Assembly (NCBI GenBank): GCA_910589415.1 | Contig: OU342638.1 | Coordinates: 2,108,001-2,172,000 of the forward strand | Reading direction: 5' to 3' | Origin: Malachius bipustulatus | Lineage: Eukaryota > Arthropoda > Insecta > Coleoptera > Melyridae | DNA length: 64,000 nucleotides | In this document: piece by piece, positions 610 to 64,000 of the stretch | How positions within the stretch are numbered: the stretch's first letter is position 1 | Layout: each line of letters begins with the position of its first letter | Translations under genes and position numbers: made by a program | The notes under the pieces: model-generated | The model's input: the letters and a program-made list of their open reading frames with translations, nothing else | Database searches by the model: none | Told to the model about the DNA's origin: nothing

Positions 610-1901
610 GGGTCAAGTGGGGTAAAAATGAGACTACCAAAATTATGGGTAAAAATGAGACAGTTACATGACTATCACTACAGATCACTTTCATTTGATG
701 CAAATGAGGCGTAATGAAATCTACACTTAGTAAAACCTAAAATCATATCGATTCAAACATTAATATAAGCCTATACATGAACAATTAAATCTTACATTGA
801 AATATTAAAATTTACGTAGCGAAAACTTTTAAACTCGGCGAGATAACTTTTGTTGCTCTGCTGGAACAAGACATTGGACGCGCTCGACGAATGTCTCAGC
901 TATAAGAGGGCTGTGTAATGAACGCGTTGGGAACGAGCCGGACAGTCTATTGCCGAATGCATGAGAGTGAACACGTCTTACTTTGTTGGGGTAATTGTGA
1001 GACGGCCTCTTGGGTAAATATGAGACACACCACGAGGTGAAAATGATACATATTTGAAGACTTGAAATAAAAACTGGGCTAAGTGCCCAAAATTCGAAAA
1101 TTGTGTTAAAACTTAAAGACAGTGCTAAACACCATCGCCACCTATAAAGCGTGCTATGTGGCAGAATTATCAGAAATGATTTATTCATTGGCTTATTTTT
1201 TCATATCTTTGTAACAATAATGTAATGTCATAAGTAAAAAAATCTGCCCCAGCATTCCATGGAGGTACTGTTAGAGTTGCACAAAAATTTGTGTTTTCAA
1301 TTGCCTTTGATAAATTTAATGTAAACTAAAGAGAGTTATTGCATGGCTACCCATACTTTGATCAAGTTTATTTTATTTTATTTTGTGTTTATTACCAAAG
1401 AATTAGGTATTTATCTTTTTTATACATTTAGTTTGTTAGCGAACTGCAATCATCAGAGTTCGTGTCAACAGTTTTTGACTTGCGGTGTTCATATACAATT
1501 TAAGAAATGTTTTCTACTATTATTGTGGAGTTTTTTGGTTATTTTTTTAAATAAAAGTAATAAAACTGTATTTATTAACGTATCATTTTTCAACCAGACC
1601 GGTTCAGCATTGCCCCAGAGGTGATAAATAGCAAACGCTCTTCAATAAACACCTGAAAACACATTGTCTCATTTTTACCCAGTCCCTGTCTCATTTTTAC
1701 CCTAAATGGCGGTTAAAAATGAGACGAGGTTTTTTATTTTTATTTCAAGAACCCTAATCATTTCATCAAATATGTGGTGTTTATATTATTCCTAATCGTA
1801 TTCTTCGTGGTATGGTAATTTTTTGAAAATTTAAATCAAAAAGCAACCCGTCGAATAATGAAAAGTTTTATAAAATGTCTCATTTTTACACCACTTGACC
1901 C
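610..1901. mobile_element. TA-flanked non-autonomous DNA transposon with GTAAAAATGAGAC iterons
   Basis: Ends are GGGTCAAGTGG and CCACTTGACCC, with TA on both outer sides, as expected for Tc1/mariner or pogo-type transposition. At least seven copies of (G)TAAAAATGAGAC or its complement GTCTCATTTTTA lie near the ends and inside (about 623, 645, 1011, 1664, 1688, 1714, 1878), a plausible set of transposase-binding sites. I see no convincing transposase; the short ORFs inside have no recognisable domain. Superfamily assignment is an inference. Confidence 0.7.
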
Positions 1902-1991
1902 TATCCTATTGGATGGATGAAATTTTTATACAGAGTGGTAAAAAATTTGATTATTTTCATCACCCGGTATAAAAATTCCAGCTCGCACAAC

Positions 1992-7243: not shown

Positions 7244-7424
7244 TACTTACTTTATCAAGAAAAGTATTTATTTAGGGTTGGCACCGACCCTGAAGTAGGT
7301 GTATACCTGGGAGTTGGGACTGAAATGGAATTTAGTGGGAAGGAAAGTAAACTGAAAGTTTATTAGGTAGTGTAGTACCTACCTAGTTAATTACTAGAAA
7401 AATTTCATTAATTGATAAATCATC

Positions 7425-8672
7425 ATGAGCTCAGAAGTCGATTATTGCGGGAATAAGATTATCAAAACAGAAGCAGTAGATGATGTTGATGATTTATTAC
7501 TCATCTCCTCAAAGTGGAAGTGTGAAACTGAACAAAATGATTCCAGTTGTGATCAATCCTCTGAATTTAACAGCGATTTTCCATGTTTTCCAATAAAACA
7601 GGAACCTGAAGACTGCTCTAGAGATGACGTTCATCTAGTGCAAACAGAAAATGTGGCCTTGAAAGAAGAAATAATGGACATTGAAGAGCATAAACCAGCA
7701 GCAGCATGGAAGCCGATTGGGAAAAGTAGTAGTGGTAGTAATGTTGGAATATCCAAGGATGAATTTGGTCTATGTGACTCTGTTGAGGAAAATGTGATGT
7801 GTCATACTTTTGAAACTCTAAAGGAAGAACAGAGAAAGTACAACTGCTTGCATTGTTCTTATAAAACAAACAAGATGTCGTATTACATGAGGCATTATAA
7901 TCGTAAACACAAGCAATTTACTGAAATTTATAAATGTAATGAATGTCTATACGAAAGTGGAATTAAATATGACCTTGTCCAACATTATAAATGCAAACAT
8001 ACAAGACAATTGTATAAATGTCAGCAATGTTCTTTTGAAACAAAAAATAAAAATTCTATCACTCAACATTTTAAGTGCAAACATTCAACAGATGCAACAA
8101 TGTATAAATGTACTGAATGTTCATATGAAACCAAAAATAAAAGTAGTTTTACTCGACATCATGTAGTTAAACATTCAAAAGATGCCAAAGTGTATAAATG
8201 TCAGGAATGTTCTTTTGAAACAAAAAATAAAAGTCATTTGAGTCGACATTATAAATGTAAGCATTCCAAAGATGCAACAGTGTATAAGTGTGAGCACTGT
8301 TCGTGGGAAACGAGATATAAGTGTGATTTGACCAGACATTATAAACATAAACATTTGAAAAAAGTAGTTGAAGTGTACAAATGTGAGGAATGTTCTTTTA
8401 AAACGAAATACAAAAGTGAATTGCCCCGCCATTATAAATACAAACATTCAAAACATGAGGAATTGCACAAGTGCGAGAAATGTTCCTTTGAAACAAAATA
8501 TAAAAGAAGCTTAATTGAGCATTGTAAATATAAACACTCAAAAGAAGTTGAAGAAGTCTTGGAAGAAGTATTCAAATGTGAGAAATGTTCTTTTGAAACA
8601 AAACATAAAGGTGCTTTGACCAGACATTATAAATGTAAACATTCAAAAGATGCAGAAGTTTATAAATGTTAA
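7425..8672 (+). CDS. C2H2 zinc-finger protein, nine fingers, truncated array
   Basis: A 415-residue protein, likely a nuclear DNA-binding regulator. The acidic N-terminus (1-135) has no recognised domain but holds psi-K-x-E motifs (IKTE, IKQE, LKEE), the SUMO consensus. From Cys141 come nine fingers of the form C-x2-C-x12-H-x4-H, with linkers such as SKDAEVYKC instead of the classical TGEKP. The protein ends YKC-stop, exactly where a tenth finger would begin, so the array looks cut short. The ATG at 7425 (context CATCATGAG) is chosen because the paralogue at 45148 starts MSLNEVN... and shares IIKTEA shortly after. No intron is visible in the ORF; upstream untranslated exons are possible. An expressed short form or a pseudogene are both possible. 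Confidence 0.85.
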   Translation: MSSEVDYCGNKIIKTEAVDDVDDLLLISSKWKCETEQNDSSCDQSSEFNSDFPCFPIKQEPEDCSRDDVHLVQTENVALKEEIMDIEEHKPAAAWKPIGKSSSGSNVGISKDEFGLCDSVEENVMCHTFETLKEEQRKYNCLHCSYKTNKMSYYMRHYNRKHKQFTEIYKCNECLYESGIKYDLVQHYKCKHTRQLYKCQQCSFETKNKNSITQHFKCKHSTDATMYKCTECSYETKNKSSFTRHHVVKHSKDAKVYKCQECSFETKNKSHLSRHYKCKHSKDATVYKCEHCSWETRYKCDLTRHYKHKHLKKVVEVYKCEECSFKTKYKSELPRHYKYKHSKHEELHKCEKCSFETKYKRSLIEHCKYKHSKEVEEVLEEVFKCEKCSFETKHKGALTRHYKCKHSKDAEVYKC

Positions 8673-17940: not shown

Positions 17941-18305
17941 GATAGGGACATGTAAACCGTTTTTAGATATCTTGAGCCGTTCTAGTTCTAGACTGCTTTG
18001 AAGTTGAAAATTTTCGATTTTCACTTGTTTATAACTCATAAACCGCTCAATTTAATTCCAATGGTGAAAACCACCTGTATTCGATTTCTTCAGACATTTA
18101 AAAAATATAAAGTTTTACAGGGTGTTCCCGTTAAAATAACGAAGTAGGTGTCAACTTCCGGTATTTCCGGAAGTACGGCCATCTTGAAAATATTTTCATT
18201 GAATTTCTCGTGATCACTTATGTCTGGAAATTTTTTATTTTGAGGTTATAGGCCCATTAGTTTCCGAGATGTAGTCGTTTACCTACCTTAATGAAACACC
18301 CTGTA
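17941..18305. mobile_element. Half of a fold-back element
   Basis: Begins with GATAGGGACATGTAAACCG, a variant of the shared fold-back module, and ends in GAAACACCCTGTA. Only one arm is present; the LINE fragment starts immediately after. Confidence 0.6.
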
Positions 18306-20210
18306 TAAAAAACTTTTTAAATGGGAGGAAGTTCACAGTAGTAGTAAACGGACACGTCTCGAACACTAGAACACTCCAGAATGGGATTCCGCAAGGCTCA
18401 ATAATATCTGTCACCCTATTCCTAATAGCCATTAACAGCATTATGAAAGCCCTAAACCCAATCGTTAGAGGCAATTTATACGCAGACGACTTTGTAATAT
18501 ATGCAAAAGGAGCAAACACTGAATCACTAAAGATCGCCTTACAGAAAACGTTAAACTCCCTTGAAAAGTGGTCAGATACAACAGGACTCAAAATATCAAC
18601 AGAAAAAAACAAATGCTTACTATTCACCAAACGAAGACACACATCAGATATATCATTAAAATTCTACAACTGTAAACTGAATTACGTTAACAACATCAAA
18701 TTCCTGGGAATGGCATTTGACCAAAAGCTACAATGGAAACTTCACATCCAATCAATTCAGAAAACCTGCGTCCAAGGAACTAACCTACTAAAAACAATCG
18801 CCCACCACGAATGGGGAGCAGATACCGCCACATTAATAGACATTTACAAGTCAATCATCACGTCAAAAATAGAATATATGGATGTATCATATTCGCCAGT
18901 GCCTCAAAAATAACTCTTAAACCTCTGGAAATAATTCTGAATTCGGCCCTAAGGACAGCACTAGGAGCCTATAGAACGTCCCCTGTTAATAGCATGAGAT
19001 GCCTAGCTGCTGAGCCACCCCTACATATAAGAAAGGAACAACTCACCATGAATTACATGGCAAGAGTAGAGTCCAATCGGAGTCACCCAAATTATAGACT
19101 CGCTAATTTAACCAACTACCATCAAATATTCTATAGAAAACCACATATCCCACAACCAGTATCAATCAGAATAGCAAAGATCAAGGTAACTCAGCACGAA
19201 AGATTACCGGCGTATCCAAAATACACAGGCAATTTCGCTCCCTGGCTGACAAGCAGTTCAGAGCTCAACACAGAACTCACACCAATCCATAAGAGCGACA
19301 CACATCCAGAAATTATTCTGAAGGAATTCCATCGCATAGCAGCTAATACAACAACGCCACATTCATATATACTGATGCATCGAAATCCGAATCAGGCACC
19401 GGATTAGCAATGCATTGCCCAACAAAAAACATTCAGTTCAATTCAGGCTATAAAACACATGTATTCTAAAATCCCACTGGTAAGAAAAATAAGAGATCTG
19501 ATGACGGAAATCGCCAGGCATGGCGACACACTATCATATTCACACCATCACACGTCAATATCAGCGGTAACGAAACTGCAGACCGCCTAGCAAAGCATGC
19601 AGCAAAGGAAGAAATCAGCATCCCTCAAAACATCCACACAAAAATAGACATCGAAAATGCGATCAAGAGAAGGGCCATCAAAAAATGGCAGGAAGAATGG
19701 AAGCAAGAAACATCAAAACTGAAACAAATAAAGAAAATTCTACAAACAAAACTTCCACTCCCCAAAGGCAGAAAGAACCAGTCAATTATATTCAGGCTCA
19801 GGCTGGGACATACCAGGGCCACCCATGAACACCTCTTAAAGAAGGAACCTATCCCACTCTGATAGGCTTGCGAAGTCCCCGTCAACGTACACCATATCCT
19901 CTGATCGACTGCCCGCTAAATGAAGAAGCCAGACTCTCTCAGACATTCCGAATAGCCTACAACAAGCTCTAGGCACAAGCAATGATAACATCAGCAAAGT
20001 TCTCAACTTTATAAGAATAACAGACCTAACAGAAAGAATATGAAAATTTTATAACAAGTTATACAACTAAAAATGTATTATTATTTAAGAGATAAATGAA
20101 TGTTTAAACTTACAAACACATCAATGTAAATTCACTTAGGATCCTGCTAATGACCTAAACGGTTGAAGCAGGTTAATTATAATAAAAAAATAATAATAAT
20201 AAAAAAAAAA
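18306..20210 (+). pseudogene. 5'-truncated LINE with RT and RNase H (R1/I-like)
   Basis: The remaining ORF2 begins just before reverse transcriptase motif GIPQGSIISVTLF (about 18380), then LYADDFVIYA (catalytic YADD, about 18476), LGMAFDQKLQW and the thumb. A frame change near 18850 continues as MRCLAAEPPLHIRKEQL. An RNase H domain follows (YTDASKSESGTG near 19368, GNETADRLAKHAAKE near 19566), then a C-terminal zinc-binding-like part broken by a stop near 19860. The tail is A-rich with ATA repeats (20180-20210). The RNase H domain argues for the R1/I/LOA group over Jockey. Several frameshifts make it dead. Confidence 0.85.
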
Positions 20211-26073: not shown

Positions 26074-26281
26074 TGGGTTAGTCCATTTATATTTCCCAGG
26101 TCTATGGTGATATCCCACTTGTCGGACAGCATCTTTTAGTTCTTTAATTTTTTTTAATAAAAAAATACACTATTGAGGATGACATCACTTTTCGAAAATC
26201 ACCCAAACACATCAAATGTCCACCGATCCTGACTCCCAGATCACGAAAATGTGGTTTTCCAAAATTCGCCTGCCCACGATA

Positions 26282-26510
26282 TACAGGGTAATTCACGGTA
26301 TACGCCACGCAAGTTTATGGCCGTGTCTCTGGATTTAAGGATCTTTTTATTTTTGGAGTGGTTAGAGACCCGGCAGAGATACGTTTTAAAATTATATTCA
26401 TAATGTACAGGCTGTCCCAAAAGCATGAAACATATCAAAGTTATGGTTTTTTAAATGGAATGCTCCTATGTTATTGCATTTTTAGATTGTCTGAGAAGAA
26501 AAAATAAGAA
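26282..26510. mobile_element. Half element related to 62775-63945
   Basis: Starts ATACAGGGTAATTCACGG and follows the left arm of the 62.8 kb element (GGCCGTGTCTCTGGATTTAA, GAGACCCGGCAGAG, TTATTGCATTTTTAGATTGT). Breaks off at about 26510. Confidence 0.7.
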
Positions 26511-26898
26511 TGGCTAAGGCGTTAAGGCTAAATCGTTAAGGACCGGATTTCGGTCCTTGAGGTGAAGAGATGTGAAGCCTAAAAGCTTATAAAACTGCAC
26601 CGGGCCGCCTTCTCTGATGGTCGCAAGCTGGCACACATTGCTGGTAGTTCTTGCCTCCATTGTTAGATGGCGAAAGGCGCTGTAAGTCACTGAGTTTCGT
26701 GGAACTTAGTGGGTACATAGGCCTAGCTTTTGATGGCGGACAGCATCGTAGCCTCTGGATTCCATCTTGATATGCTGTACTGATGAGGTCATAAAAAGAC
26801 CGAAACGGTCCGTCTACAGCTTCGAGAGGCTCTAGATGGTTGCGTGTGTTGTCTGCCATTGAAAGCTCTTTATTTAATGAGCTTAAAATGCCCGATAA

Positions 26899-26901
<3 letters not shown>
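26511..26901 (+). other. Unclassified ribozyme-bearing block (possible retroelement end)
   Basis: Moderate GC, non-repetitive within the window apart from the ribozyme. It contains a perfect 8-bp hairpin AAGGACCG...CGGTCCTT near 26538 and the hammerhead at 26774. Hammerheads are known in Penelope-like element LTRs and some SINEs and satellites, so a relic of such an element is the best inference. No ORF of note. Confidence 0.4.
26774..26820 (+). ncRNA. Hammerhead ribozyme, complete core
   Basis: Stem I GCTGTA (26774-26779) pairs with TACAGC (26815-26820). The core CTGATGA is at 26780-26786. Stem II is GGTC/GACC with a 7-base ATAAAAA loop (26787-26801). GAAA lies at 26802-26805. Stem III is A-C-G (26805-26807) paired with C-G-T (26811-26813) and a 3-base loop. 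The cleavage triplet GTC ends at 26814. All invariant core bases of the hammerhead are present. The very short stem III is the form usually seen in retroelement-associated hammerheads, which often work best as dimers. Activity is inferred, not shown. Confidence 0.85.

Positions 26902-26931
<30 letters not shown>
26902..26931. repeat. TA microsatellite
   Basis: About 14 TA units, ending on the TACAGGGTG of fold-back A. Insertion at a TA target inside a TA run is expected for mariner-type elements. Confidence 0.95.
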
Positions 26932-26936
<5 letters not shown>

Positions 26937-27739
26937 GGTGTCCCAGCTTATTCGAAGCGGTCTCTGTAGGTCAAACGATGGACTTTTTCAAAAAACTTTT
27001 TGAAAATTCAAGTACAGAATCACAATGGCCATAATTTAAAATTATTTTGGAGTATACAGAGTGTCCCATATGACAGTGACATATCAAAGTTATGTTTCTT
27101 TAAATGGAAAGCTCCTATGTTATTGCATTTTTAGATTGTCTGAGAAGAGAAAATAAGATTGGCTTTTACAGTTGGTGTTTAAATTCAGAAGTTTTTGAGT
27201 TATAAACATGTGAAAATCGTCATTTTTCAAGTTCAATGCCCTGTACAACGAAAACGGCTAAAGAGTAGATGAAATGTTTATACAGGGTGATAAAAAATTT
27301 GAAAAATTCTGAGATTTCTCCACGTGTCGCCAAATAAAAAAATCAAAGAAAGTACAAATTTGTACATAAAAAGTTAAAATAGGGACATGCAAGCCGTTTT
27401 TCTCTATCTTGAACCGTTTTCGTTGTACAGGGCCTTGAACTTCAAAAATGACGATTTTCACTTGTTTATAACTCAAAAACTTCTGAATTTAAACACCAAC
27501 TGTAAAAGCCAATCTTATTTTCTCTTCTCAGACAATCTAAAAATGCAATAACATAGGAGCTTTCCATTTAAAAAAACATAACGTTGATATGTCACTGTCA
27601 TATGGGACACTCTTTATACTCCAAAATAATTTTAAATTATGGCCATTGTGATTCTGTACTTGAATTTTCAAAAAGTTTTTTGAAAAAGTCCATCGTTTGG
27701 CCTACAGAGACCGCTTCGAATAAGCTGGGACATCCTGTA
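26932..27739. mobile_element. Fold-back element A ('CCAGCTTATTCGAAGCGG' family)
   Basis: TACAGGGTGTCCCAGCTTAT at the left, ATAAGCTGGGACATCCTGTA at the right. The arms pair along almost their whole 350-base length around a centre containing TACAGGGTGATAAAAAATTT and the GGGACATGCAAGCCG module. Secondary subterminal ends (ACAGAGTGTCCCATATGAC) lie about 125 bases in. No coding content. Confidence 0.9.
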
Positions 27740-27924
27740 TATATAGCAGGTGAATTTTGGAAAACTACTTTTTCGTGATCTGGGGGTCATGATCGGTGGA
27801 CATTTGATGAGTTTGGGTGATTTTTGGAAAGTGATGTCGTCCTCAATAGTGTATTTTTTTGTTAAAAAATACACTAAAACACGAACCTAGCAATTAATTA
27901 TTTAACAAATGAATAAATTATATT

Positions 27925-28795: not shown

Positions 28796-29087
28796 ATTTT
28801 AAATTTCTAAATTTAAATTTTTTTATTTATATTTTAAATTTTTAATTTAAATTTATGGATTGATATTGTTGAAAATCTTGGTGATTATTGTTTTAGGAAT
28901 TTTTAGTAAGTAGGGTTTAATTTCATGTACTTTTGGTCGGTTTTAATTGAGAAATTCTAAGAATTTGAATAAAAATGTTGGTTACGACAATTGGCTTAGA
29001 AGTTATATTTCAAATTTAGAATTATTATGACTAGTAAAATGTTGGTGGTTAAGCCAGTTGACTTACTTCGAGTGTACATTACGCCTA

Positions 29088-29977
29088 TACAGGGTGTCCC
29101 AGCTTATTCGAAGCGGTCTCTGTAGGCCAAACGATGGACTTTTTCAAAAACTTTTTTGAAAATTCAAGTACAGAATCACAATGGTCATAGTTTAAAATTA
29201 TTTTGGAGTATACAGAGTGTCCCATATGACAGTGGCATATCAAAGTTATGGTTTTTTAAATGGAATGCTCCTATGTTATTGCATTTTTAGATTGTCTGAG
29301 AAGAGAAAATAAGATTGGCTTTTAAGTTGTTGTTTAAATTCAGAAGTTTGTGAGTTATTAACAAGTGAAAATCGCCATTTTTGAAGTTCAAGGCCCTGTA
29401 CAACGAAAACGGTTCAAGATAGAGAAAAATGGCTTACATGTCCCTATTTTAACTTTTTATGTACTATCCTATGGTATAGAAACATTTGTACTTTCTTTGA
29501 TTTTTTTATTTGGCGGCGTGTGGAGAAATCTCAGAATTTTTCAAATTTTTCATCACCCTGTATAAACATTTCATCTAATCATAGGATAGTACATGAAATA
29601 TTAAAATAGGGACATGTAAGCCGTTTTTCTCTATCTTTATATAGCCGTTTTTGTTGTACAGGGCCTTGAACTTCAAAAAAGGCGACTTTCACTTGTTTAT
29701 AACTCAAAAACTTCTGAATTTAAACACCAACTGTAAAAGCTAATCTTATTTTCTCTTCTCACACAATCTAAAAATGCAATAACATAGGAGCATTCCATTA
29801 AAAAAAAAACATAACTTTGATATGCCATTGTCATATGGGACACTCTGTATACCCCAAAATCATTTTACATTATGGCCATTGTGATCCTGTACCTACTTGA
29901 ATTTGCAAAAAGTTTTTGGAAATAATCCATCGTTTTGGCCTACAGAGACCGCTTCGAATAAGCTGGGACACCCTGTA
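29088..29977. mobile_element. Fold-back element B ('CCAGCTTATTCGAAGCGG' family)
   Basis: TACAGGGTGTCCCAGCTTAT and ATAAGCTGGGACACCCTGTA ends, 890 bp, intact arms. The centre (29400-29620) has the GGCTTACATGTCCCTATTTT module on both sides of a CATCACCCTGTATAAAC core. Closest to 26932-27739. Confidence 0.9.
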
Positions 29978-30441
29978 ACTATAAGAGAAATGAAGGAAAA
30001 ATGATAAAAATAATTTTTTATTTATTTAAAATTTTACCAATGTGACACTGAATTCAGTTGATGAACTTTTTAAAAGAAGAAACTGGTTGGAACATAGGAT
30101 TACTGGATAAAAACAACACGCGGTATCACGGATACACAGAAGGTTTGGAAGGTTTACGCCTAATGGCTCATCTGCGAACAGCAGGTTTTCATTCCGTTCG
30201 TTTCTTGAATTCGAGGGTTAAGCCCTTTAGCATGATGTGTACGCCATTTGTCTTGTTCCTGAATTTCCACATTGGTGTTACGATAAATGCATGTTACATC
30301 ACATTTGACCCATATAAAGCTTTGTGGATTACGCCAGTTGTTGAAATTATGTGGAATACGCCTTTTAGAAACCATCTACATCCTTAACTCAATTTCACAA
30401 AATTTGAGGGTTAAGCCAGTTGGCCTACGACCTGTCGAATG

Positions 30442-31667: not shown

Positions 31668-33188
31668 TTACTTTTTTACTTGGCAACACTGATGAGAAAT
31701 TAAATTGTGTTTATATTTCGTTTTGAATTGACAACGAGCACACCTATAAATATCAACGTTCTTGTTATGAATGTAGTTAATATGTTTGACGAGATATGCT
31801 TTACTTGCGGTACTAAAGGAACATTTCGCACATTCAAATTTATCGGTCCGTTCTCCATGGTTTAATTTGGCATGCCGATAAATACTAGTTTTACATTTCG
31901 CTTGAAATGAACAATGGGCACATTTATGCAACACGACTTTTTCAATATGAGTGAATCTGACGTGATTGTCTAGGCTGCGTTTATACTTTGTTTTAAACGG
32001 ACAATGAGAACACTTCAGAATATCGCTCCTATTGTTATGTACACGTCTAATGTGCCTGACTAGAATGTGCTTAATGTTGGTCTTATAAGAACAAATCGCG
32101 CATTCAAATTTCGTTTGTTCTATGTGCTTTGCTTTAATATGTCGGTGAATGCTGCTCCTATGTTTGGCTTCGAAAGAACAATAAGCGCATTTACGAAGTA
32201 CGATCTTTTCATTATGACTATGAGCGAACCTAATATGATCATCCAAGCTGCGTTTATACTTGGTTTCAAAGTCACAATGTGAGCATCTACGAAGAGCAAT
32301 ATTTTTGTTATGCATACATTTAACATGATACTGCATATATTCTTTAATTCTAGTCTTATAAAAACACTGATCACATTCGATTTCTTCACTTTGTGAATGC
32401 TGCATTTTAACATGTCGGTACATGGTGCTTCTATGCTTCGTCTCGAAAGAGCAATAAGAACATTTAAGCAGCTCACTATTTTTAACGTGGGTGCACCTGA
32501 TGTGATTAACTAAGCTGTTCTTGTATTTGGTTGTATACTGGCAATGAGCACATTTATAAATGTAAATATTTTTGTTATGGATGTGTTTAAAATGTTTGAG
32601 CAGATATACTCGACTTTTCGTGATAAAAGAACAACTTGCACACTCAAATTTATCATTCTGGTCACCGTGTCTCAATTTAAAGTGTCGATTAATACTGCTT
32701 TTATGTTTTGATACAAAAGGACAATGAGTGCACTTGAGAATCTTGAACTGTTTTTCCTGAATCGCAGTGAAAGAGTGTGTCAACGTTTTTTCTTCGGGCT
32801 CCAGTTTGATGTCGTTTGTACCCATCTCTTCATTTTTCACATCGAAGCTCTCCCCGACAACTTGATTTAAATAATATGACTGACTAGGATTATATCTTTC
32901 AAATAATTTATGGTCTTCAATATCTATTTCTTCCTTTATTCCATTCACTTGGACTGGATTTTTTTCTGTTTTAGTGTACTTTGTAGTATAACAGTAATCT
33001 ACCACATCTTGAGTCACTACTTGTTCATTTTCATCTATTTCGATCTTCACAGGAACTACTTGCTGCGAGTTATTACAAAGTGACTCATTCTTTCTAACAG
33101 CAGATATGTCATCCTTCTTGATCACCTCAGACGCTGTACTTGATGTCATCTGGAATGTATCTAACGCCATTTTCACCACTTTCTTTGT
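31668..33188 (-). CDS. C2H2 zinc-finger protein, exon 2 (main exon)
   Basis: Encodes 506 residues of a predicted 523-residue nuclear DNA-binding protein. The acceptor TTTTTTTTTGTTTCCAG ends at 33189; the first codons read TKKVVKMALD and join exon 1 in phase 0. The N-terminal 150 residues are acidic, with psi-K-x-E motifs (VKIE, IKEE, IKLE). Then come eleven full fingers (C-x2-C-x12-H-x3-5-H) and a twelfth lacking its last His (KYKHNLISHQCCQVKK-stop). The fingers form a three-finger unit repeated four times: type A (K.RSS..RH), type B (with a longer linker ending HN) and type C (KYKRSLD.H). Frame intact. Paralogue of the genes at 7425 and 45148. Confidence 0.88.
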   Translation of the reverse strand, partial: TKKVVKMALDTFQMTSSTASEVIKKDDISAVRKNESLCNNSQQVVPVKIEIDENEQVVTQDVVDYCYTTKYTKTEKNPVQVNGIKEEIDIEDHKLFERYNPSQSYYLNQVVGESFDVKNEEMGTNDIKLEPEEKTLTHSFTAIQEKQFKILKCTHCPFVSKHKSSINRHFKLRHGDQNDKFECASCSFITKSRVYLLKHFKHIHNKNIYIYKCAHCQYTTKYKNSLVNHIRCTHVKNSELLKCSYCSFETKHRSTMYRHVKMQHSQSEEIECDQCFYKTRIKEYMQYHVKCMHNKNIALRRCSHCDFETKYKRSLDDHIRFAHSHNEKIVLRKCAYCSFEAKHRSSIHRHIKAKHIEQTKFECAICSYKTNIKHILVRHIRRVHNNRSDILKCSHCPFKTKYKRSLDNHVRFTHIEKVVLHKCAHCSFQAKCKTSIYRHAKLNHGERTDKFECAKCSFSTASKAYLVKHINYIHNKNVDIYRCARCQFKTKYKHNLISHQCCQVKK

Positions 33189-33569
33189 CTGGAAACAAAA
33201 AAAAAGCACTGTTTCATGGCACTTGTAATTTTTTTTTAATTAATAGTAACAACAGAAATCATTAATAAGGCACAGACAACCAATAATTGAAAGATATAGG
33301 AAATCTAAGTAAAAACAGAGCGGCTCAGTCAACTGAACCATTACTACTGGCAGAGAATTGGTTGGTGGAAACCTTGAAGATCTAGTCATTACTACTGGAG
33401 GATATTCTAATGTTACTGAGAAAGGAAACTAGTCTATTAATAATTCAAAAAGTGGGCTGTCTGGTCCTGGTACGTACATATTGTGGGATTAAAAATACCA
33501 GGACCCCAAATCGATTCTAAAGGGCAAACTTTGGTATCTAATACTGCAGTCTACACATCGGTACGAAAA

Positions 33570-33698
33570 TTATGTACAGTAACTGACACATCCAAAAAAG
33601 TAATTTCAGAGAAGCGGCAAGCAGAAACTTTCGTTGCATGAAAAATTTTCCGCTTGCCGCTTCTCCGAAATTGATTTTTAGAACTGTCAGTTACTTTA
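33570..33698. repeat. Hairpin MITE in the intron
   Basis: GTACAGTAACTGACA...AGAGAAGCGGCAAGC pairs with GCTTGCCGCTTCTCCG...CTGTCAGTTAC; loop of about 20 bases. Confidence 0.8.
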
Positions 33699-46066: not shown

Positions 46067-49000
46067 TTATAAATTCAAACGTGTAGGAGGTTTTACAATT
46101 CTCCCTTTTGTAGTCACAAATGAACTATCTATTACAAGTTTACAAGATACAGGGGAATCCATATCACCTAAATTAACAGGATTATCTTCTAAAGTTTTTG
46201 GTAGATCTACAGCTTCATTATGTGATGGAATATTTGAAACATCTGTAGTACTTAATACATTAAGGTTGTTGTTTAATAAATTATCGATAGGACCTAAAGA
46301 TACAAAATTATCATTTATTCTACTATCATCATTATCTACATAATATTTACATTTTTTAGTGTCTGAATCATTCCACGATACTCCTTTCTTTGGACTTACA
46401 TAATTTTCATTCTGAGTATTATCAGTTTTTAAAATCGATTCCCGTATGTATTTTCTGTTTCTTACATATATGCCCTTGTTTTCTATTTGCAGCTTATATC
46501 TACGTTCGCCTAATCTACAGATTATCCTTCCTTTCAACCAATTAGCATCTGGTCTCAGTTTTACCCAAACATTTTGGTTGTGAACTAACGGTTTTAATTT
46601 TTTCGCACCTTTTTTATTGTTATAGTAACTTGCGCTCTCAATTTGTTTATTCTTTAAAAAATTAGAATAACGCTTTTTATTTATTAAGTGAGGTTCTAAT
46701 TTATTTACATCAAATGGTAATAATGGATTTCTAGTTCGTCTGGACATTAGAATCTCAGAAGGTGACACACTTTCGAAAATTGGTGTATTACGTAACTGCA
46801 GCAGTGCTAAGTAGACATCTTTATTGTCTAGGGTTACTTTTCTTAGGAGATTTTTTATTGTTTGAACGTTTCGCTCCGCCATGCCATTTGACTGACTGTG
46901 GTATGGTGAAGTTATGATATGTTTGAATTTCCAACTATCGGCAAACATTTGGAAATTTCCAGACGTGTATTGTGGACCTCCATCGGAAACCAGAATTTGA
47001 GGTACACCATGCCGTGAAAAAATACTTTTCATGCAGTTTATTATTTTATTACTGGAGGCATTGCCAGATATTTTCTCTACTTCTATAAATTTTGAGTAGT
47101 AATCGACGAGAATTAGATATTGTTCACCGTTTAATTCAAAAATATCTGAGCCAACTTTGTACCACGGGATAAGTGGTATGTCGTGTGACCTTAAAGGTTC
47201 ATTTCTTTGAGCTGATTGATATTTCTGACAAATCGGACATGTTTCAACTACTTGCCTTATTTCATTTCGCATGGTCGGCCAAAAAACTGATTCTTCAGCT
47301 AGTTTTACAGTTTTATTGAAACCCAGGTGACTATAATGAATTTTGTCCAATATTTCTTTTCGCATTGACTTTGGTATTACACAAGCTACACCTTTATAAA
47401 CTATCCCTTCATTTACATCTAAATCATTTTTATATTTACAATAAATTTTAACATTAGAATGAACACTTTTGTTCTTATTAGGCCATCCATTAATTATAGT
47501 TTGAGTGAGTAGCATTAATTCTTCATCTTTTTCGCTTTCGTCTCTAATTTTATTAATGTATTCTTCTGAAATATTTGGACCTACGTTAACTACACAGATT
47601 TGTTCATTTGGAAGTTCATTTGCTTCGTCAGACGATATCGGTAAGTATGATCGGGACAATGCATCAGCGATTATCAATTCTGAACCCTTTTTATATTTTA
47701 AAGTAAATTCGTACTTCATCAATTGTAGCATTAATCGCTGTAACCTTGATGGACATTTATCAATTGGTTTCTGCATAATAGCTAAGATTGGTTTATGATC
47801 ATTTTCAACTATAATTTTTTGACCAAAAACATATTCGTGAAATTTCTGCAGCCCGAACAAAATCGCGTACATTTCTTTTTCGATTTGGGAGTAACGTTTT
47901 TGAGTTTCTGTCAGTGCTTTTGAAGCATAACAAATAGGTTTATTATCTTGCAAAAGACAAGCCCCGACTCCGCACTGAGACGCATCAACTGACACAGTTA
48001 TTTCTTTATTTGGGTCGAAAAACTGAAGAACTGGCTTTCTTATTAAACTGTCTTTAATTCTTTGAAAAGCATTAATTTGAGGTTCCTCCCACTTGAAAAA
48101 AACATCTTTTTTCAACAGTTGTCTTAAAGGCTCTGTCTCTACTGAGTAATTTGGTATGTATTTATTAATATAATTTATGACACCCAAAAGACGTTGTATG
48201 TCTTTTTTACAGTTCGGTTCCGGTAATTCGACAATAGCTTTGACACGTTCAGGGTCAATGGTAATACCATTTTTATTTATTATGTGACCCATAAATTTAA
48301 TTTCGTTTATTGAAAATTGGCATTTTACGAGTCCAAACCTGACTCCATGTTTACGAGCAGCTTTTAATACTTTATAAAATATTTCATCATGTTCTTTTTG
48401 TGTCTTTCCCCAAATTATTATATCATCAATATAAATGCCTACATTTGGAAAATTAAAAATTTGCTTGAAACGCTCATTGAATATTTCTGGGGCACATGTT
48501 ATTCCATAAGGTACACGTTTATATTTATAGCGACCAAAAGGCGTACCAAAAGTACAAAGATTTGAACTTTCTTCGTCCAACGGTACCTGATGGAATGCGT
48601 GGCTTGCATCTAATTTGCTCCAAACCTTTGCCCCCGACATCCTACTGGTTATCTCCTCAAAAGTATCTAGCTTGCTGTGCTCACGTTTAATGGCTTTATT
48701 AAGATGGAATGGGTCCAAGCAAATTCTAATTGAATTATCATTTTTTCGAACTATTACCAAAGGATTAACCCACTCGCTTGGTCCATTCACTTTTTCGATT
48801 ATTTTATTGTACTCTAGTTCCTGTAACGCTTTCTGAAGTGGATCTAATAATGCGAAAGGAACTTTCCTAATCGGTGAGATAACAGGTTTTACGGTAGGGT
48901 CTATAGTAATGTGATATGGTGGATTTATAACCCCGGTTCCTGAAAATAAGTCACCATACTCATTTTTAATTCTTTCATCAATACAGGTTATGTCGTCACA

Positions 49001-50053
49001 AGCCTCATTATTTCCAAAATTATTCTCTTTTGCCTCGTTATCTGTATTTTCAACAATTCGTAGCCTAACACTGTCTCGTAAGCCTAAAAGAGCTTCAGAA
49101 TTATTATTTACAACATGGAATTCAATTTCATACACTCTATTATTTTTAATGCAACTCAAATTACAAGTACCTAAGACCGGAATATTATCCCCTGAATAGG
49201 ATTTAAGAGTTATATTAGACCTTTTCAGTAAATTAATCTGTAATTTCAAATCGTCTAAATAAAGATTCACAGGCATTATATTGACTGCCGCTCCTGAATC
49301 AATTTTAAATTTAATGTTCTTATTATTTATGGTTAATGTGGTATACCAGGAACAACAATCTGCATTTAGGGCATCTAAATTGTTAGAACATTTTTTAATT
49401 GTGCCTATATACAGTGAAGAATTTACGCTTGTACTCGGATTTACACAATCATCTCTACTTAATGAATTGATTTTACCTATTCTGCACATGTTTGAAAAAT
49501 GATTGGTCCTTTTGCACTTTCCGCACATTTTCCCGAAAGCAGGACATTTTCTTATAGGATGAGATGTTCCACACCTTGTGCAATTATTTATGAAATTATT
49601 AAAATTTCCTGACCTGTTCGCACCTCTTGATTTAGACCTGTTTTGCCATCTCGAACCACTCTGCGACCTGGATGGTATCCTTGAATTTTCTTGTCTGCTC
49701 TGACTTCTGCTTTGGTGCTGGTGGAACTTCACAGCATGAACACCCATGTCATTTCCTTTGTTGTTGTTGTAGTTGTCGATTTTCTTTGTCTGCGACTTGG
49801 CTTGCTCTAGTATGGTACAAAGCTTAACAGCTTCGTTTAAGTTTAAATCTTCTTTTTGTAGGAGCTTTTCCCTTGTCTCTGAATTATTGGTGCCAGAGAT
49901 CAGAACACAAAGAATTAAATCGTTTGCAAGGTCCCCAAACTTACAAAAAGATGCTTGTTTACGCAGTTCGGTTAGAAATTGTTCGAATGTCTGGTCGCCC
50001 TGCCTAGACATGAAGAACTTGTACCTCAAAAAGTTTAGGTTTTCCTGTGGCTT
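46067..50053 (-). CDS. Gypsy gag-pol polyprotein, N-terminally truncated
   Basis: A single open frame of more than 1,320 codons with no frameshift between gag and pol. In order (counting from the codon at 50029): gag remainder with two CCHC-like knuckles (Cys150-Cys182), an aspartic protease active site DSGA (244-247), reverse transcriptase with YIDDI (533-537), RNase H (DAS at 682), integrase zinc finger (H898, H901, C931, C934) and integrase DDE residues near D962, D1016, E1052, then a C-terminal tail. All catalytic motifs seem intact. The start is missing: the frame runs up into the LTR without an ATG until the Met of FFMSRQGDQ. The motif set suggests the Mag lineage. Confidence 0.92.
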   Translation of the reverse strand, partial: KPQENLNFLRYKFFMSRQGDQTFEQFLTELRKQASFCKFGDLANDLILCVLISGTNNSETREKLLQKEDLNLNEAVKLCTILEQAKSQTKKIDNYNNNKGNDMGVHAVKFHQHQSRSQSRQENSRIPSRSQSGSRWQNRSKSRGANRSGNFNNFINNCTRCGTSHPIRKCPAFGKMCGKCKRTNHFSNMCRIGKINSLSRDDCVNPSTSVNSSLYIGTIKKCSNNLDALNADCCSWYTTLTINNKNIKFKIDSGAAVNIMPVNLYLDDLKLQINLLKRSNITLKSYSGDNIPVLGTCNLSCIKNNRVYEIEFHVVNNNSEALLGLRDSVRLRIVENTDNEAKENNFGNNEACDDITCIDERIKNEYGDLFSGTGVINPPYHITIDPTVKPVISPIRKVPFALLDPLQKALQELEYNKIIEKVNGPSEWVNPLVIVRKNDNSIRICLDPFHLNKAIKREHSKLDTFEEITSRMSGAKVWSKLDASHAFHQVPLDEESSNLCTFGTPFGRYKYKRVPYGITCAPEIFNERFKQIFNFPNVGIYIDDIIIWGKTQKEHDEIFYKVLKAARKHGVRFGLVKCQFSINEIKFMGHIINKNGITIDPERVKAIVELPEPNCKKDIQRLLGVINYINKYIPNYSVETEPLRQLLKKDVFFKWEEPQINAFQRIKDSLIRKPVLQFFDPNKEITVSVDASQCGVGACLLQDNKPICYASKALTETQKRYSQIEKEMYAILFGLQKFHEYVFGQKIIVENDHKPILAIMQKPIDKCPSRLQRLMLQLMKYEFTLKYKKGSELIIADALSRSYLPISSDEANELPNEQICVVNVGPNISEEYINKIRDESEKDEELMLLTQTIINGWPNKNKSVHSNVKIYCKYKNDLDVNEGIVYKGVACVIPKSMRKEILDKIHYSHLGFNKTVKLAEESVFWPTMRNEIRQVVETCPICQKYQSAQRNEPLRSHDIPLIPWYKVGSDIFELNGEQYLILVDYYSKFIEVEKISGNASSNKIINCMKSIFSRHGVPQILVSDGGPQYTSGNFQMFADSWKFKHIITSPYHSQSNGMAERNVQTIKNLLRKVTLDNKDVYLALLQLRNTPIFESVSPSEILMSRRTRNPLLPFDVNKLEPHLINKKRYSNFLKNKQIESASYYNNKKGAKKLKPLVHNQNVWVKLRPDANWLKGRIICRLGERRYKLQIENKGIYVRNRKYIRESILKTDNTQNENYVSPKKGVSWNDSDTKKCKYYVDNDDSRINDNFVSLGPIDNLLNNNLNVLSTTDVSNIPSHNEAVDLPKTLEDNPVNLGDMDSPVSCKLVIDSSFVTTKGRIVKPPTRLNL

Positions 50054-50321
50054 TGTTTGGTTTAATTTAATTAGTAGCAGAATAGGAATTAATTATTAAA
50101 CGATTATATTTAATTTTCTTTATTAAGTATTCTTCAGCACGAGATACATGACAATGAATCTTGCAGGCATGATCCCGATTGTGTTAATGATATTCGTAAT
50201 GCTTTACACTTTACAGTTAAAACTAAAATACAAATGACAGATGACAGTAATGACACATGCATTCGTGACATGACATTGTCAAACTTACATATCTATGTTG
50301 TCACGTTAGCCGTATACAACA
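50054..50321. repeat. Gypsy LTR, right copy (5' LTR of the minus-strand element)
   Basis: 268 bp, TG...CA, nearly identical to the left copy. Adjacent internal sequence is gag-coding, not a primer-binding site. Confidence 0.95.
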
Positions 50322-50326
50322 CGACC

Positions 50327-51641
50327 CACCTCCTCTAAGTTGAAATGCGAAGATGAGGGAAATTATTCAAGCTGCGGTGGTCCGTCTGAATTAAGGAGTT
50401 TGGAGAATATCTCTCCGTCGTGCCCTCTAAAAAAAGAACCTGAAGACTCACCATCAGATGACCTTCATCAAGTGCAAGCAGAAAATTTGGCATTAAAAGA
50501 AGAGTTTGACATCGAAGAACACAAACCGGGCTGGGCGCCGCTTAACAGAAGTAGTAGTAATGTTGGAAGGTTTAAATGTGAATCTGATCAAGAAAACGAG
50601 TTACGGTCTTCTGAAAGTAAGAGGGAAAGTGAGGCGAAGTATAACTGTGCACATTGTCCGTATAAAACAAACAAGAGAGATTATTACGTTCAGCATTATA
50701 ATTTTAAACACAAACAGTGTGCAAAAGTGTATAAATGTAATGAATGCTCACTTGAAACAAGATATAAAAGTGCTATGACTCAACATTATAAAATTAAACA
50801 TGCAAAAGAACCAGCGGAAGTGTTCAAATGCCAGGAATGTTCATATGAAGGTAGGAGGAAGGATCATTTGACCAGACATTATAAATATACACATTCAGGA
50901 GACTCAGAAGTGTACAGATGTGCTGAATGTTCATATGAGACAAAATATAAAGGTCATTTGACTCGACATTATAAAATTAAACACACCAAAGATGCTGAAG
51001 TGTACAAATGTGAGGAATGTTTTTTTGAAACGAGACATAGAGGCAGTTTAGCTGAGCATTATAAATGTAAACATTCAAAAGGCGCTGTAGTATATAAATG
51101 TACTGAATGTTCCCACGAAACAAAAAATAAAACTAATTTGAATCGACATTATAAATGGAAACATTCAAAGAATGCAGAAGTGTACAAGTGTCAAGAATGT
51201 TCATATGAAACTAAACAGAAATGTGAATTGACCAAACATTATAAACGTAAACATGCACGAGATGCTGAAGTGTACAAATGTCAGGAATGCTCATTTGAAA
51301 CAAAATATAAAAATTATTTAACCAAACATTTTAAAATTGAGCATTCAAAAGAACCGGCAGAAGTGTACAAATGTCCGGAGTGTTCATATAAAACAAAACA
51401 TAAATGTGATTTGACAAAACATTTTAAACGTAAACACGCAAAAGATGCTGATGCCTACAAATACAAATGTCAGGAGTGTTCATTTGAAACGCGAAATAAA
51501 AGTAGTTTAAGTGAACATTATAAACGTAAACATGAAAGTGTTGTGTACATCTATAAATGTGTTGAATGTCGATATGAAACTAAAATAAAAAGGGACCTTG
51601 TCCGACATTTTAAAGGTGCTCACTCGGTCAGAACGAGCTAA
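50327..51641 (+). CDS. C2H2 zinc-finger protein, 3' part, eleven fingers
   Basis: Continuation of the gene begun at 45148. After the duplicated CGACC, the frame reads TSSKLKCEDEGNYSSCGG. The acidic N-terminus has LKKEPED, LALKEEFDIEEHKP and similar psi-K-x-E motifs, close to the gene at 7425 (VALKEEIMDIEEHKP). The first finger starts near residue 144 of the joined protein, then eleven C-x2-C-x12-H-x4-H fingers with linkers such as SKDAEVYKC; the tenth has a YKYKC duplication. It ends VRHFKGAHSVRTS-stop. With Gypsy in place, an internal Met at 50344 could still start a 433-residue protein with every finger, if a promoter were supplied. Confidence 0.88.
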
Positions 51642-52199: not shown

Positions 52200-53731
52200 T
52201 CAAGCACAACTTAAACCCAAACATTTTACAAACTTGGAATTCTTAACATTCTGTAACGGTTTGGTCAAGATATCAGCTACCATTTCATCAGTTGACAAAT
52301 ATTTTAAATTAATCTTATTCTCAGATAATGCATCTCTTGGGAAATGGTATCTTATGTCAATGTGCTTTGACCTATCATGGAAAACTGGATTATTTGCTAG
52401 CTTATGAGCACTCTGGTTATCATTGTAAATATCAATACAATCCAATTTTCCTGTAATCTCAAATAAAAGGTTTCTTAAATATATAGCCTCCTTAGCTGCT
52501 TCGCTTGGGGCCATATATTCAGCTTCGGTTGTCGATAAGGCAACTGTCCGCTGTTTACAGCTCTCCATGAAACTGAACCCCCAGAAAATTTAAAAACAAA
52601 ACCAGTAAATGATTTTCTGTCGCGCTTGTCTGAGCCCCAGTCAGCATCTGCGAACCCTGTTAAATCACAATTTTCTCTGTGAAATCTCATGGAAAAGTGT
52701 TTCGTTCCTTTTAAGTATCTAAGTATACGCTTTGCACACTGCCAATGTAACTTGGTGTAAGAACTATTGTATTGGCTTAGCAGACCCACAGCATGAGAAA
52801 TGTCAGGACGTGTCATGACAGCTAAATACATTAAGCTTCCGATAAGTTCCTGATAAGGAATTTTTTGATCACAAGTCTCACCTCTGACCTCACTCAAGTT
52901 GACACTGCTATCTAGCGGAGTACAAACAATCTTACTATCTACCATACCAAAGCGTGTTAACAAATCATTTATATACAGTTCCTGATCAATTGTTATGCAA
53001 TCCTTATTATAATCTCGCTTGATCCTAACGCCTAAACATTGTTTAGCCTCTCCAAGATTTTTTATTTTAAACTTCGAGCTTAAATGACCCTCATGGAAAT
53101 TCATTTCTTTGGAGTCAGCTGAAAAACAGAAAAAATCATCTACATAAAGTGCGATTATCGTTAACAGATTTCCTTCGTTTCTCTTTATGTATAACCAAGG
53201 CTCAAAACTAGACTTTTTATACCCAATACTTGATAAAACTTTGTCTACTTTTTCGTTCCATGCACGACTAGACTGCTTTAATCCATATACAGCCTTTTTT
53301 AATTTATAAACTTTATTTTCATTACCTTTTGAGACAAAACCCTCAAGCTGTTGCATAAAAACATTTTCTTTTATCACCCCGTTTAAAAATGCTGTCTTAA
53401 CATGCAAAATTCTTAATTTTAGCTGAACTGCTAGACCTATTAATAATCTAAAGGTTGAATGTCTCACTACCGGAGCAAAGGTTTCAACATAATCAACACC
53501 CTCTCTTTGAGTGTAACCTTTTGCTACCAATCGAGCCCTATACCTGCTATCACTGTCACTTTTCACTCTGAAAACCCATTTACACTGCACAACTGTTCCA
53601 GCCTTCGGTGGATCAACGAGCTCCCACGTTTCATTCTCATCGAATGAATGGATTTTTTCCAGCATGGCTTGCTTCCATTTATACCTGTCTGGCCTCGACA
53701 AAGCTTCCGCTACTGTTCTTGGAAGACTCAA
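52200..53731 (-). pseudogene. Copia reverse transcriptase and RNase H
   Basis: Reverse transcriptase 53731-52560: WELVDPPKAGTVVQCKWVFR, then LHVKTAFLNG where the family has DVKTAFLNG, so the first catalytic Asp has become His. YVDDFFCF keeps the other two. RNase H begins FADADWGSD; a frame change near 52540 carries on as ALSTTEAEYMA, YNDNQSA and VADILTKPL (to 52200). A frameshift also separates it from integrase. Not functional. Confidence 0.88.
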
Positions 53732-53772
53732 AGTGTCTTGTACTTCGCCATCATTGCTAGCACTGAAATATG

Positions 53773-54762
53773 TTATGAACTCACAAAGTTTTTCTTCTTG
53801 GTCTCTCTTTGTGATCTTCTTGGAGCTTCTAGTACATCTGGATCACTGGGCGCATTTTCAGGAACATAATCACTATCACCATCAGAGTTTGCAGCGTCAT
53901 TGTACAGAGATTCATCCAATTCTTGAGAAAAACTGTCATTTTCTTCTCCCACTGAATCTGAATTATCTCTCGGGACTTCGTCTTGAACAGTGTTGACCTC
54001 GGTACGAGCTACGCTTACTTTTTCCATGATAGTCACATCACGACTGATTATCACTCTTCTTGTTACTGGATTGAAACATCTATATCCCTTTGTAGTCTCA
54101 TCATAACCCACAAGAACATGTTTGACTGACTTCTGATCCCACTTGTTCCTACTGACCTTTGGAACATGGACCTTGGCTATACTTCCATAGACTCGAAGGT
54201 GACTGACGTTTGGTTTTCTACCAGTCCACAATTCATACGGAGTTTTCAAAAGCTTTGAGGATGCTGAACGATTTTTCAGGTAGCACGCTGTATTACAAGC
54301 TTCAGCCCCTAAAGATTTGCTCAGGCCCTCATCAAACAAAAGACACTTCGCCTTCTCTACAAGAGTACGATTGAATCGCTCGGCCATTCCATTTTGCTGA
54401 GGTGTGTGACTATTCGATGTCTGATGTACGATGCCAGCATTCTTTAAATACCTGTCAAAATCTCTGTTGCAGAATTCACCTCCATTATCACTTCTCAGCA
54501 CTTTAATTTTGACTTCTTGCTGATTCTCTACTAAACTTTTGAATCCCTTGAATTTATCAAGTACCTCATCCTTCGTCTTTAGGAAATAAATGAAACACAT
54601 TCGACTGAAGTCATCTATGAATGTCAGGAAATATTTAGCTCCACCTAATGATGTTGTTTCCATAGGACCGCAGATGTCAATGTGTATCACCTCTAGTAGT
54701 TGCTGTGCACGACTACCTTCCTTGGGAAAAGGCAAACGGGCTTGCTTGCCTTTACAGCACAC
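53773..54762 (-). pseudogene. Copia integrase
   Basis: Open for 329 codons: EVIHIDICGPM (first Asp), VLRSDNGGEF (second Asp), PQQNGMAERFNR (Glu), then the copia C-terminal region (PYELWTGRKPNVSHLRVYGS) and an acidic linker ending in APRRSQRETKKKN. All three DDE residues are present, but it is out of frame with both neighbours. Confidence 0.88.
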
Positions 54763-55253
54763 CTCACAATTTCCAACTTGTACACAAGACCATTTACTAG
54801 CTTTGCTGTCTTATGTAGGTAGCTCTCATTAATGTGGCCTAAACGTTGATGCCAAACATTGCTATTCTCTGTCTGAAAGCATACTGGTTGATCTTTGCAG
54901 ACATTTAATTTGTATACATTGCTGGTAAGGTTAGCTGTCGCCACTAAAACACCATCTGGATTGAAGATTTTACACCCATTTTCATGAAAACACACCTTAT
55001 TTCCATTATTTTTCAATTGAAAAACCGATAATAAATTTGTTGTCAAACCTGGGACATGCTGAACTCCTTTCAGCAATATTTTGTGTTCTCTGTCTGTGAT
55101 CGTTTTTACTTCGACATCACCAGCACATTCTACAGTAATTTTAGATTTGTTTGCTACTACAATCTCAGATAAATCAGGATTCCTTTGATTTTTTAACCAT
55201 TGTTTATTAGTTGTCAGATGCATGCTTGCTCCGCTGTCAATAAAATAAACCAA
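54693..55253 (-). pseudogene. Copia protease and pre-integrase domain
   Basis: FIDSGASMHL is the protease active site; VWHQRLGHINE is the GAG-pre-integrase His-containing motif. The pre-integrase zinc finger is then broken by a frame change near 54770, and the integrase continues in another frame. Confidence 0.82.
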
Positions 55254-56166
55254 TCCGTAGTTTTAAAATCACCAGTGGTAAAAACAGCACTGAAAGTTTT
55301 TGGGACATCAAAGACATAAAATGGTCCACATTTTTGCATCTGTAGCAAATAATCTCCTTTTTATCGCCAGGACGACCTCTTGAACTTGAACTCATTTGAT
55401 CCTCAGAACTCTGACTTGACGACGTCCATTTTGATCCATGACCAGCTGATTATCCTTTAAAATTCTTCATACTAGCGCCATCTCTGGATTGCTTGCGACA
55501 TGAACCTGATTTGAAAGTTGGGTTAACAGCGAACGCACCACGGCTGCTGCTACTACTACCGCCATCCATCTGCATGTCAAGCAACTTCGTTTTTATGGAG
55601 TCTGTGGTAATATCGATCCCTGAGTGTTCCACGGCCATAATCATTGGAGCGTATTTGTCTGGGAGACCTGCTAACAGCAAAGACCCGACCCATTCTTCGT
55701 CAATTTGAAAACCGGTACGACGGAGCTTCTGGGATGTTTCGACGACTTGATTTATATAAGCCTCCGTACTGTCGTGATTTTCAAGTCTTGCTGATATGAG
55801 CGTACGCAATAGTCCGATCTTACGCATGAAACCACTATCATCATACAACCTTTTCAATTGAGTCCATACTTCTTTGGCTGTTTTCGCATCCTTTATATGC
55901 GGAAATAAAGATGGATCGATCGTTAAAACCAACTTGGCCTTTGCTTTTGCGATGATGGTTGTATCCGTTTCACTACCGTCGATGCATTTTGTTAAGCCCT
56001 CGAGCACAAATACATTCTCGACTGCGAAAGCCCATTCATCGTAATTCTCACGACCTAAAAGCCTTGGCACACTTGTCAAATAATTAACAGCCATGTTGCT
56101 TTTGTGAGAAGGAAAAGCACTACTCGCGACTTCGACACAATATGACGATTCTTCTTCACTTCTCAA
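55254..56166 (-). pseudogene. Copia gag
   Basis: A 238-codon frame (MRSEEESSYC..., then LLGRENYDEWAFAVENVF and LYDDSGFMRKIGLLRTL) of the copia gag type, ended by TAA at 55447-55449. In the same frame beyond the stop, ICYRCKNVDHF starts the CCHC knuckle but its last Cys is lost. One stop plus a shift to protease make it inactive. Confidence 0.8.
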
Positions 56167-56208
56167 AAAAACTGATTACCCTAAACCTCGCGTTCTGGGT
56201 ACATAACC

Positions 56209-63945: not shown

Positions 63946-64000
63946 TAAATATCACATTTTATGATGTAAAAATGCATTGTTAGTATTTTAAATGAATCAT

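Follow-up and report, generated by a model that had tools for sequence, protein, structure and literature searches.

We found that the copies of a hammerhead-bearing retrozyme in the genome of the beetle Malachius bipustulatus, here termed family A, are quite probably best explained by insertion that was templated by RNA rings, primed by the target DNA and carried out on both of its strands. In this model, a type I hammerhead would cut multi-unit transcripts of the arrays once per unit, and a host ligase would close the 441-nt monomers into rings. The target would be a nicked AT-rich site, often (TA)n, whose free DNA 3′ end would anneal to the ring's AU-rich segment; a borrowed reverse transcriptase would then copy the ring, in some cases over many laps. 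The two nicked strands would often both prime, each on a ring and usually on the same one, and joining of the two cDNAs in the middle of the site would leave two arms whose 3′ ends face outward, flanked by target duplications where these are readable. As read from sequence, the loci display tandem units with a ribozyme core, arms that point outward, 3′ ends that cluster and 5′ ends that scatter, alleles shared between arms, a chimera of families A and B and, at four loci, duplications; from these we infer cleavage, ring formation, target-primed copying and the involvement of the enzymes. The window referred to below is the 64,000-nt stretch of contig OU342638.1 (positions 2,108,001–2,172,000, assembly GCA_910589415.1) that was analysed, numbered from its first letter.

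The hammerhead and its carrier

The hammerhead at 26774–26820 is confirmed, at the level of sequence, as that of a real self-cleaving RNA. It has the complete catalytic core, the three helices and the open-ended helix I of a type I hammerhead, and every element that the preliminary description had listed is in place (Table 1). A strict descriptor finds this one site on both strands of the 64-kb window and none in 2,000 dinucleotide shuffles; a looser descriptor gave 1 match among 150 shuffles. The preliminary description had also held that a lack of Rfam covariance-model scores above threshold would count against the ribozyme, and this lack is what was found. No family was accepted for the site at the gathering threshold, and a loose threshold on 701 bases again gave no accepted family, the hammerhead family listed being HH9, which scored 24.1 bits where its cut-off is 52. 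We regard this failure as a limitation of Rfam's models, because with a covariance model trained on 40 phage type I hammerheads the site reaches 43.9 bits (E 1.6e-9; the model's sole window match up to E 10). The core part of this score is partly circular, since the pattern used to gather the training motifs had its core modelled on 26774–26820. The collecting pattern left most stem pairing free, and the training set was made up of 41 of 89 distinct motifs, picked by length, with one more omitted. Type I hammerheads in which helices II and III are closed occur in at least 120 IMG/VR contigs (121 motifs, 89 distinct, by a loose pattern), and the IMG/VR contig L001 resembles, by eye, a type III hammerhead. 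Phage contigs gave one match to a narrow hammerhead pattern and none to a second pattern, and exact-pattern scans for the hammerhead in prokaryote genome contigs gave no match.

Table 1. Features of the window around the hammerhead, and loci of three further hammerhead families
Feature	Position or locus	Strand	Remark
Type I hammerhead ribozyme core and inner helix I	26774–26820	+	predicted cleavage between 26814 and 26815
Hammerhead helix I	GCTGTA 26774–26779 / TACAGC 26815–26820	+	
Core box CTGATGA	26780–26786	+	
Hammerhead helix II	GGTC 26787–26790 / GACC 26798–26801	+	loop ATAAAAA
Core box GAAA	26802–26805	+	
Hammerhead helix III	ACG 26805–26807 / CGT 26811–26813	+	A15.1-U16.1 counted; loop GTC
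Cleavable C	26814	+	predicted
Hammerhead-bearing arm	26730–26865	+	long extended helix I, ribozyme at tip
Retrozyme copy, family A	26564–26904	+	unit positions 191–441 then 1–89; 93.8% identical to array unit
Segment between upstream repeat and retrozyme	26516–26563	+	48 bp, absent from 441-bp unit
Dispersed palindromic repeat, left part	26294–26515	+	broken off at foreign block
(TA)n tract at 3′ edge of copy	26895–26933	.	usual setting of young family A insertions
MITE-like inverted-repeat element right of copy	26926–27745	.	arms 26926–27264 / 27407–27745, 97% complementary
Family C loci	L203, L205, L206, L207, L174		
Family D loci	L201, L202, L208, L210		
Family E loci	L204, L207, L209		

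The hammerhead-bearing arm, of 136 nt, folds at z −8.0 with 53 predicted pairs. When strands are compared, the arm reaches z −9.1 on the plus and −2.35 on the minus strand, and 26516–26894 reaches −7.8 and −3.75, a plus-strand bias that is not expected from a DNA inverted repeat alone. Among forty 380-nt segments around the block, the one at 26650 reached z −11.0 and one other, at 33650, −6.2, so a low z by itself is not unique in this region. Folding of the hammerhead region predicts that helix I contains an internal loop and that loop II is A-rich; unconstrained folding, in a model without tertiary contacts, prefers a competing hairpin over the hammerhead by ~4 kcal/mol. Five family units folded as circles gave the better fold on the plus strand in five of five cases. 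One helix I pair occurs as U-G (13 copies), U-A (8) and C-G (6) and is therefore paired in 27 of 27 copies, over which 96.2% of the cells of the 3-bp helix III are paired as well. Whole-structure covariation in the same alignment (27 of the 38 copies, those nearly identical to the array unit being omitted) amounts to 2 pairs with double changes, which is not above shuffles (427 of 500 reach 2).

The window copy comprises 0.77 of the 441-bp family A unit with one hammerhead, and ends at a (TA)n tract. It is a 5′-truncated, single-unit family A retrozyme, and probably a dead one, as one hammerhead and 0.77 of a unit could not release a ring alone. The block had at first been drawn at 26511–26901 and said to match nothing else nearby; it is indeed single-copy in the window except for its (TA)n end, but only 26564–26904 belongs to the element. 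A 64-bp query spanning the 48 bp upstream of the copy matched only its own place in the genome; on this ground a separate element in this unique 5′ part was rejected, and the 48 bp are probably filler at the 5′ junction. Eight other aligned window copies of the palindromic repeat on the left continue differently past the break.

The surroundings are rich in other repeats. Long palindromic MITE-like repeats with ends like CAGGGT lie at 26150–27869, 29086–29983 and 62786–63947 of the window; they have (TA)n at or near their edges and often flank retrozyme insertions. Pfam recognized reverse transcriptase, RNase H and integrase domains in one long open frame (46067–50092, minus strand), pieces with RVT_2 and integrase domains (52475–56175, minus) and an RVT_1 fragment (18275–18913, plus). 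Long C2H2 zinc-finger frames lie at 7419–8672 (plus), 31668–33239 (minus) and 50310–51641 (plus), the first and last of them each with 90-bp tandem repeats. ARAGORN, which has little power to detect a diverged SINE head, found no tRNA gene in the window.

Family A and its insertion footprints

With the block as query, the beetle's own 544-Mb genome gave at least 126 matches (39 of 368 candidates scored). We examined 37 family A loci (L152–L188), which cover all the listed matches outside the window and which, with the window copy, make 38. Family A is a 441-bp tandem unit; the first three units compared in L152 are identical, and this array runs for 20.2 laps of 441 bp, in which the phage-built hammerhead model gives 20 matches. 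Across 38 sources, 103 of 122 matches to the model score at least 37.2 bits, a few of the matches belonging to other families. The tandem or dispersed copies that the preliminary description had proposed to look for thus exist, in arrays of up to 20 units, and the copies elsewhere keep the core, a lack of core conservation being what it would have taken as refutation.

Animal non-LTR retrozymes with type I hammerheads have been described, with insects named among their hosts, in the available part of PMC7229834, and their circular RNAs have been published (PMC7229834, PMC7761336, as far as the accessible text goes). By its features, we class family A as a non-LTR retrozyme. Like the metazoan elements in the accessible portion of PMC7229834, it has a type I hammerhead with helix III, tandem units, a highly self-paired predicted ring and an insect host. 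It shares with them the lack of LTRs, none of which was seen on inspection of array edges and flanks at the 38 loci, and a GC content below 50%: that of the family A unit is 0.46, under the 50% given in the paper's text and slightly over the 45% in the legend to its Figure 1. The 441-bp unit exceeds the published range of about 170–400 nt, which we take as a difference in size only. The carrier, once suspected to be undescribed, is new in sequence but known in kind. The longest ATG frame in the unit encodes 116 aa in antisense; it was rejected as a coding gene, the antisense stretch of the window copy being without relatives at E up to 1.

The two arms of every inverted family A locus point outward. 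Across the 38 loci, 18 are outward (left arm minus, right arm plus), none is inward and 20 run in a single direction; by pattern, 17 are '−+', one '−++', ten '+', nine '−', one '++' and none '+−'. The outer 3′ ends fall inside unit positions 55–150, a stretch defined post hoc once the ends had been seen, in 53 of 56 cases, with 3 elsewhere. The 5′ ends are scattered, 17 of 58 lying in 55–150 against an expected fraction of 0.22 (p 0.20). This stretch makes up 22% of the unit and is 76% AT, compared with 48% in the remainder. The commonest 3′ ends are at unit positions 136 (13), 103 (9) and 140 (8), and another two 3′ ends, in L180 and L185, sit at internal junctions. Orientation and end counts use pieces of at least 45 bp from a list already without pieces below 100 bp, four loci excepted.

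The 3′ edges of young insertions commonly abut (TA)n. A 10-bp (TA)n-like flank is present at 34 of 47 young 3′ edges and at 4 of 20 5′ edges, against a background of 0.19% of window positions; a stricter 24-bp test, since replaced, was positive at 27 of 56 3′ edges and at 6 of 20 5′ edges, with a background of 6 in 15,994. No such flank occurs at the 9 edges of six old family A loci, so a preference for (TA)n may belong to recent activity alone, and two single-arm copies (L183 and L186) have (TA)n at neither edge. At the inner joints of the 18 inverted loci, the arms overlap by 2–7 bp in nine, abut in one and are separated by 1–35 bp in eight. Matching flanks were read by eye at L187 (8 bp) and L188 (12 bp), and young insertions within (TA)n have no readable target duplication. 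Beside the old family A pair of L188 lie two weaker hammerhead-model matches, of 19.8 bits at 1562–1610 (minus) and 26.8 bits at 1872–1920 (plus).

The two arms of a locus tend to share alleles. In 15 younger inverted loci, 22 of 34 non-reference sites agree between the arms and 12 differ, the 34 sites coming from 7 of these loci and the other 8 having none; with arms swapped, agreement averages 5% and reaches at most 21%. Inclusion of three old loci, which this main figure omits, gives 34 of 67 sites in agreement and 33 of 67 in disagreement. The comparison dropped 15 columns per piece end. At L156 and L158, allele sets run through the units and both arms, with several variants in every covered unit and a few in a single unit only. 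At L152, some variants recur at non-adjacent units, a recurrence that copying from one ring does not predict and that requires later exchange between units.

Other hammerhead families in the same genome

A pattern search of the genome returned 3,509 hammerhead-like sites (1,564 + 1,945), a total that double-counts some family C sites, and 0 with the pattern reversed. The family B unit is 432 bp in L172 and 438 bp in many other places, with the core CTGAAGA...GAAA. Copies lie in L172 (1647–2410, minus), L190 and L159 (2231–2624, plus), and a family B query gave at least 172 matches in the genome. In DNA, its likeness to family A is limited to a 42-bp stretch at the hammerhead (76%) together with some short words. 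Among the 150 of the 172 matches that were listed, 40 family B loci comprise 24 that are outward, none inward and 16 single-direction. Their outer 3′ ends fall at query positions 111–170 in 54 of 64 cases (16 at 127, 16 at 162); eight of the other 10, at query 432, are likely to reflect pieces outside the listed matches rather than true ends, and the 20 of 64 5′ ends at query 1 are probably an artefact of the match list and hence no gauge of 5′ scatter.

Families A and B also meet within single loci. L159 is a chimera with a left A arm on the minus strand and a right B arm on the plus strand, 24 bp apart, and in L190, which covers the wider region of L172, there is an A minus arm, then a (TA)n stretch, then an outward B pair. 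An 11-nt word is common to A and B at the shared 3′ end; one equally long appears in 41 of 2,000 shuffles, and we regard the word as suggestive only. It is absent from the units of the three more hammerhead families that we named, C (573 bp), D (462 bp) and E (about 425 bp), the last being distantly related to A (74% over 145 bp).

On contig C1, there are among the matches listed 13 opposite-strand neighbours, of which 11 are outward and 2 inward, both of the latter in family D; this survey took 86 places from the matches listed, with doubled rows dropped and family letters assigned by eye. Neither of the two is a single inward array. L208 is a pile-up of 80–87% identical pieces in the order −,+,−,+, and L210 has a lone plus copy ~1 kb from an outward pair, 81–84% identical. 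The outward D array of L201 runs for 14.5 laps on the minus and 1.4 laps on the plus strand, with AATATAGACA on both flanks (10 bp, by eye), and the outward D array of L202 has AACCTAAATATT on both flanks (12 bp, by eye). Families C and E occur together in L207 as a nested inverted pile, E−, C−, C+, E+.

Proposed copying from a ring and its alternatives

Outward 3′ ends on both sides are expected if the two strands of one nicked target each prime a copy of the plus-strand RNA. Arms of many laps cross the cleavage site without a seam, so that the template would have been a ring or an uncut multimer, and the ring is favoured because the ribozyme cores are kept in the units. The alleles shared between arms suggest that one ring usually serves both, and the A/B chimera of L159 suggests that two different RNAs can serve one event. 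The clustering of 3′ ends in the AU-rich segment, together with the (TA)n flanks, suggests that the target DNA end anneals there. Beyond family A, we lean towards the view that in several families two DNA ends at one nick copy ribozyme-made rings, for up to many laps and sometimes on two different rings in one event, and that the copies are joined mid-site.

A linear multi-unit transcript that escaped cleavage could take the place of the ring and leave the target-primed, twin-primed mechanism otherwise unchanged. The arrays themselves are multi-unit templates with alleles common to their units, but a hammerhead is present in every unit and, if active, should cut such transcripts, and 20 laps would require a transcript of ~8.9 kb; we regard this version as unlikely. 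We consider it quite unlikely that the arrays are satellite DNA which expanded and dispersed at the DNA level through unequal exchange, extrachromosomal circles or inversion of segments, with the hammerhead a relic. Units within arrays are near-identical, and the variants of L152 recur at non-adjacent units, as unequal exchange gives. However, all 42 inverted loci of families A and B are outward, the outer ends of family A cluster in one AT-rich segment and its inner ends scatter, two complete inverted D arrays are bounded by matching flanks, and the folding bias favours the plus strand.

It is highly improbable that the element is a fragment of a Penelope-like or Terminon element with a minimal hammerhead acting as a dimer. 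Type I topology is common to these elements and family A, and Penelope elements, too, are found in tandem copies (in the part of PMC7229834 at hand). Yet in the available text of PMC7761336 the Penelope and Terminon hammerheads are minimal, without helix III or loop–loop contacts, whereas that of family A has a closed 3-bp helix III on a 53-pair predicted arm and is closer to those of canonical animal retrozymes. No GIY-YIG domain was found by Pfam in 10 of the 13 window open reading frames of at least 150 aa. Of the retroelement type first proposed, the hammerhead within a repeat-borne retroelement holds, but the Penelope-like assignment is not supported.

Ring-templated insertion from both strands of a nicked target, if true, would make these loci a locus-by-locus record of rolling-circle target-primed reverse transcription; it would supply the integration step that has been missing for animal retrozymes and would amount to a separate mode of retrotransposition. 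The insertions suggest where copying starts (a short AU-rich segment), the target (often (TA)n), the direction and a ring-like template. For metazoan retrozymes, a 2020 review notes no conserved motif that points to a helper retrotransposon (PMC7761336, section 7, in the accessible text); this question would become testable by seeking an element that shares the target preference of the insertions. Outward arrays would likewise serve as a signature for ring-templated insertions in other genomes.

The accessible text of PMC7229834 makes no mention of outward arrays, a (TA)n setting, clustered 3′ ends or a two-family chimera, all of them features of family A. Among other known systems, the pDo500 satellite of Dolichopoda cave crickets is, like family A, a tandem insect repeat with a hammerhead-like structure, but is described as a satellite, without inverted-array analysis, in the available portion of PMC2808323. 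Plant LTR retrozymes have hammerhead-made circular RNA intermediates, as we propose for family A, but carry type III hammerheads in an LTR element with units of ~700 bp (PMC7761336, in its available part). A literature search found no description of the outward-array insertion signature, which is weak evidence of novelty as subscription papers were mostly outside its scope. In twin priming of LINEs, the left part of the insertion is inverted, the 3′ ends point outward, there is a target duplication, and many inner joints have microhomology. Family A has the same outward geometry, but its arms can run for several laps and the template appears ring-like.
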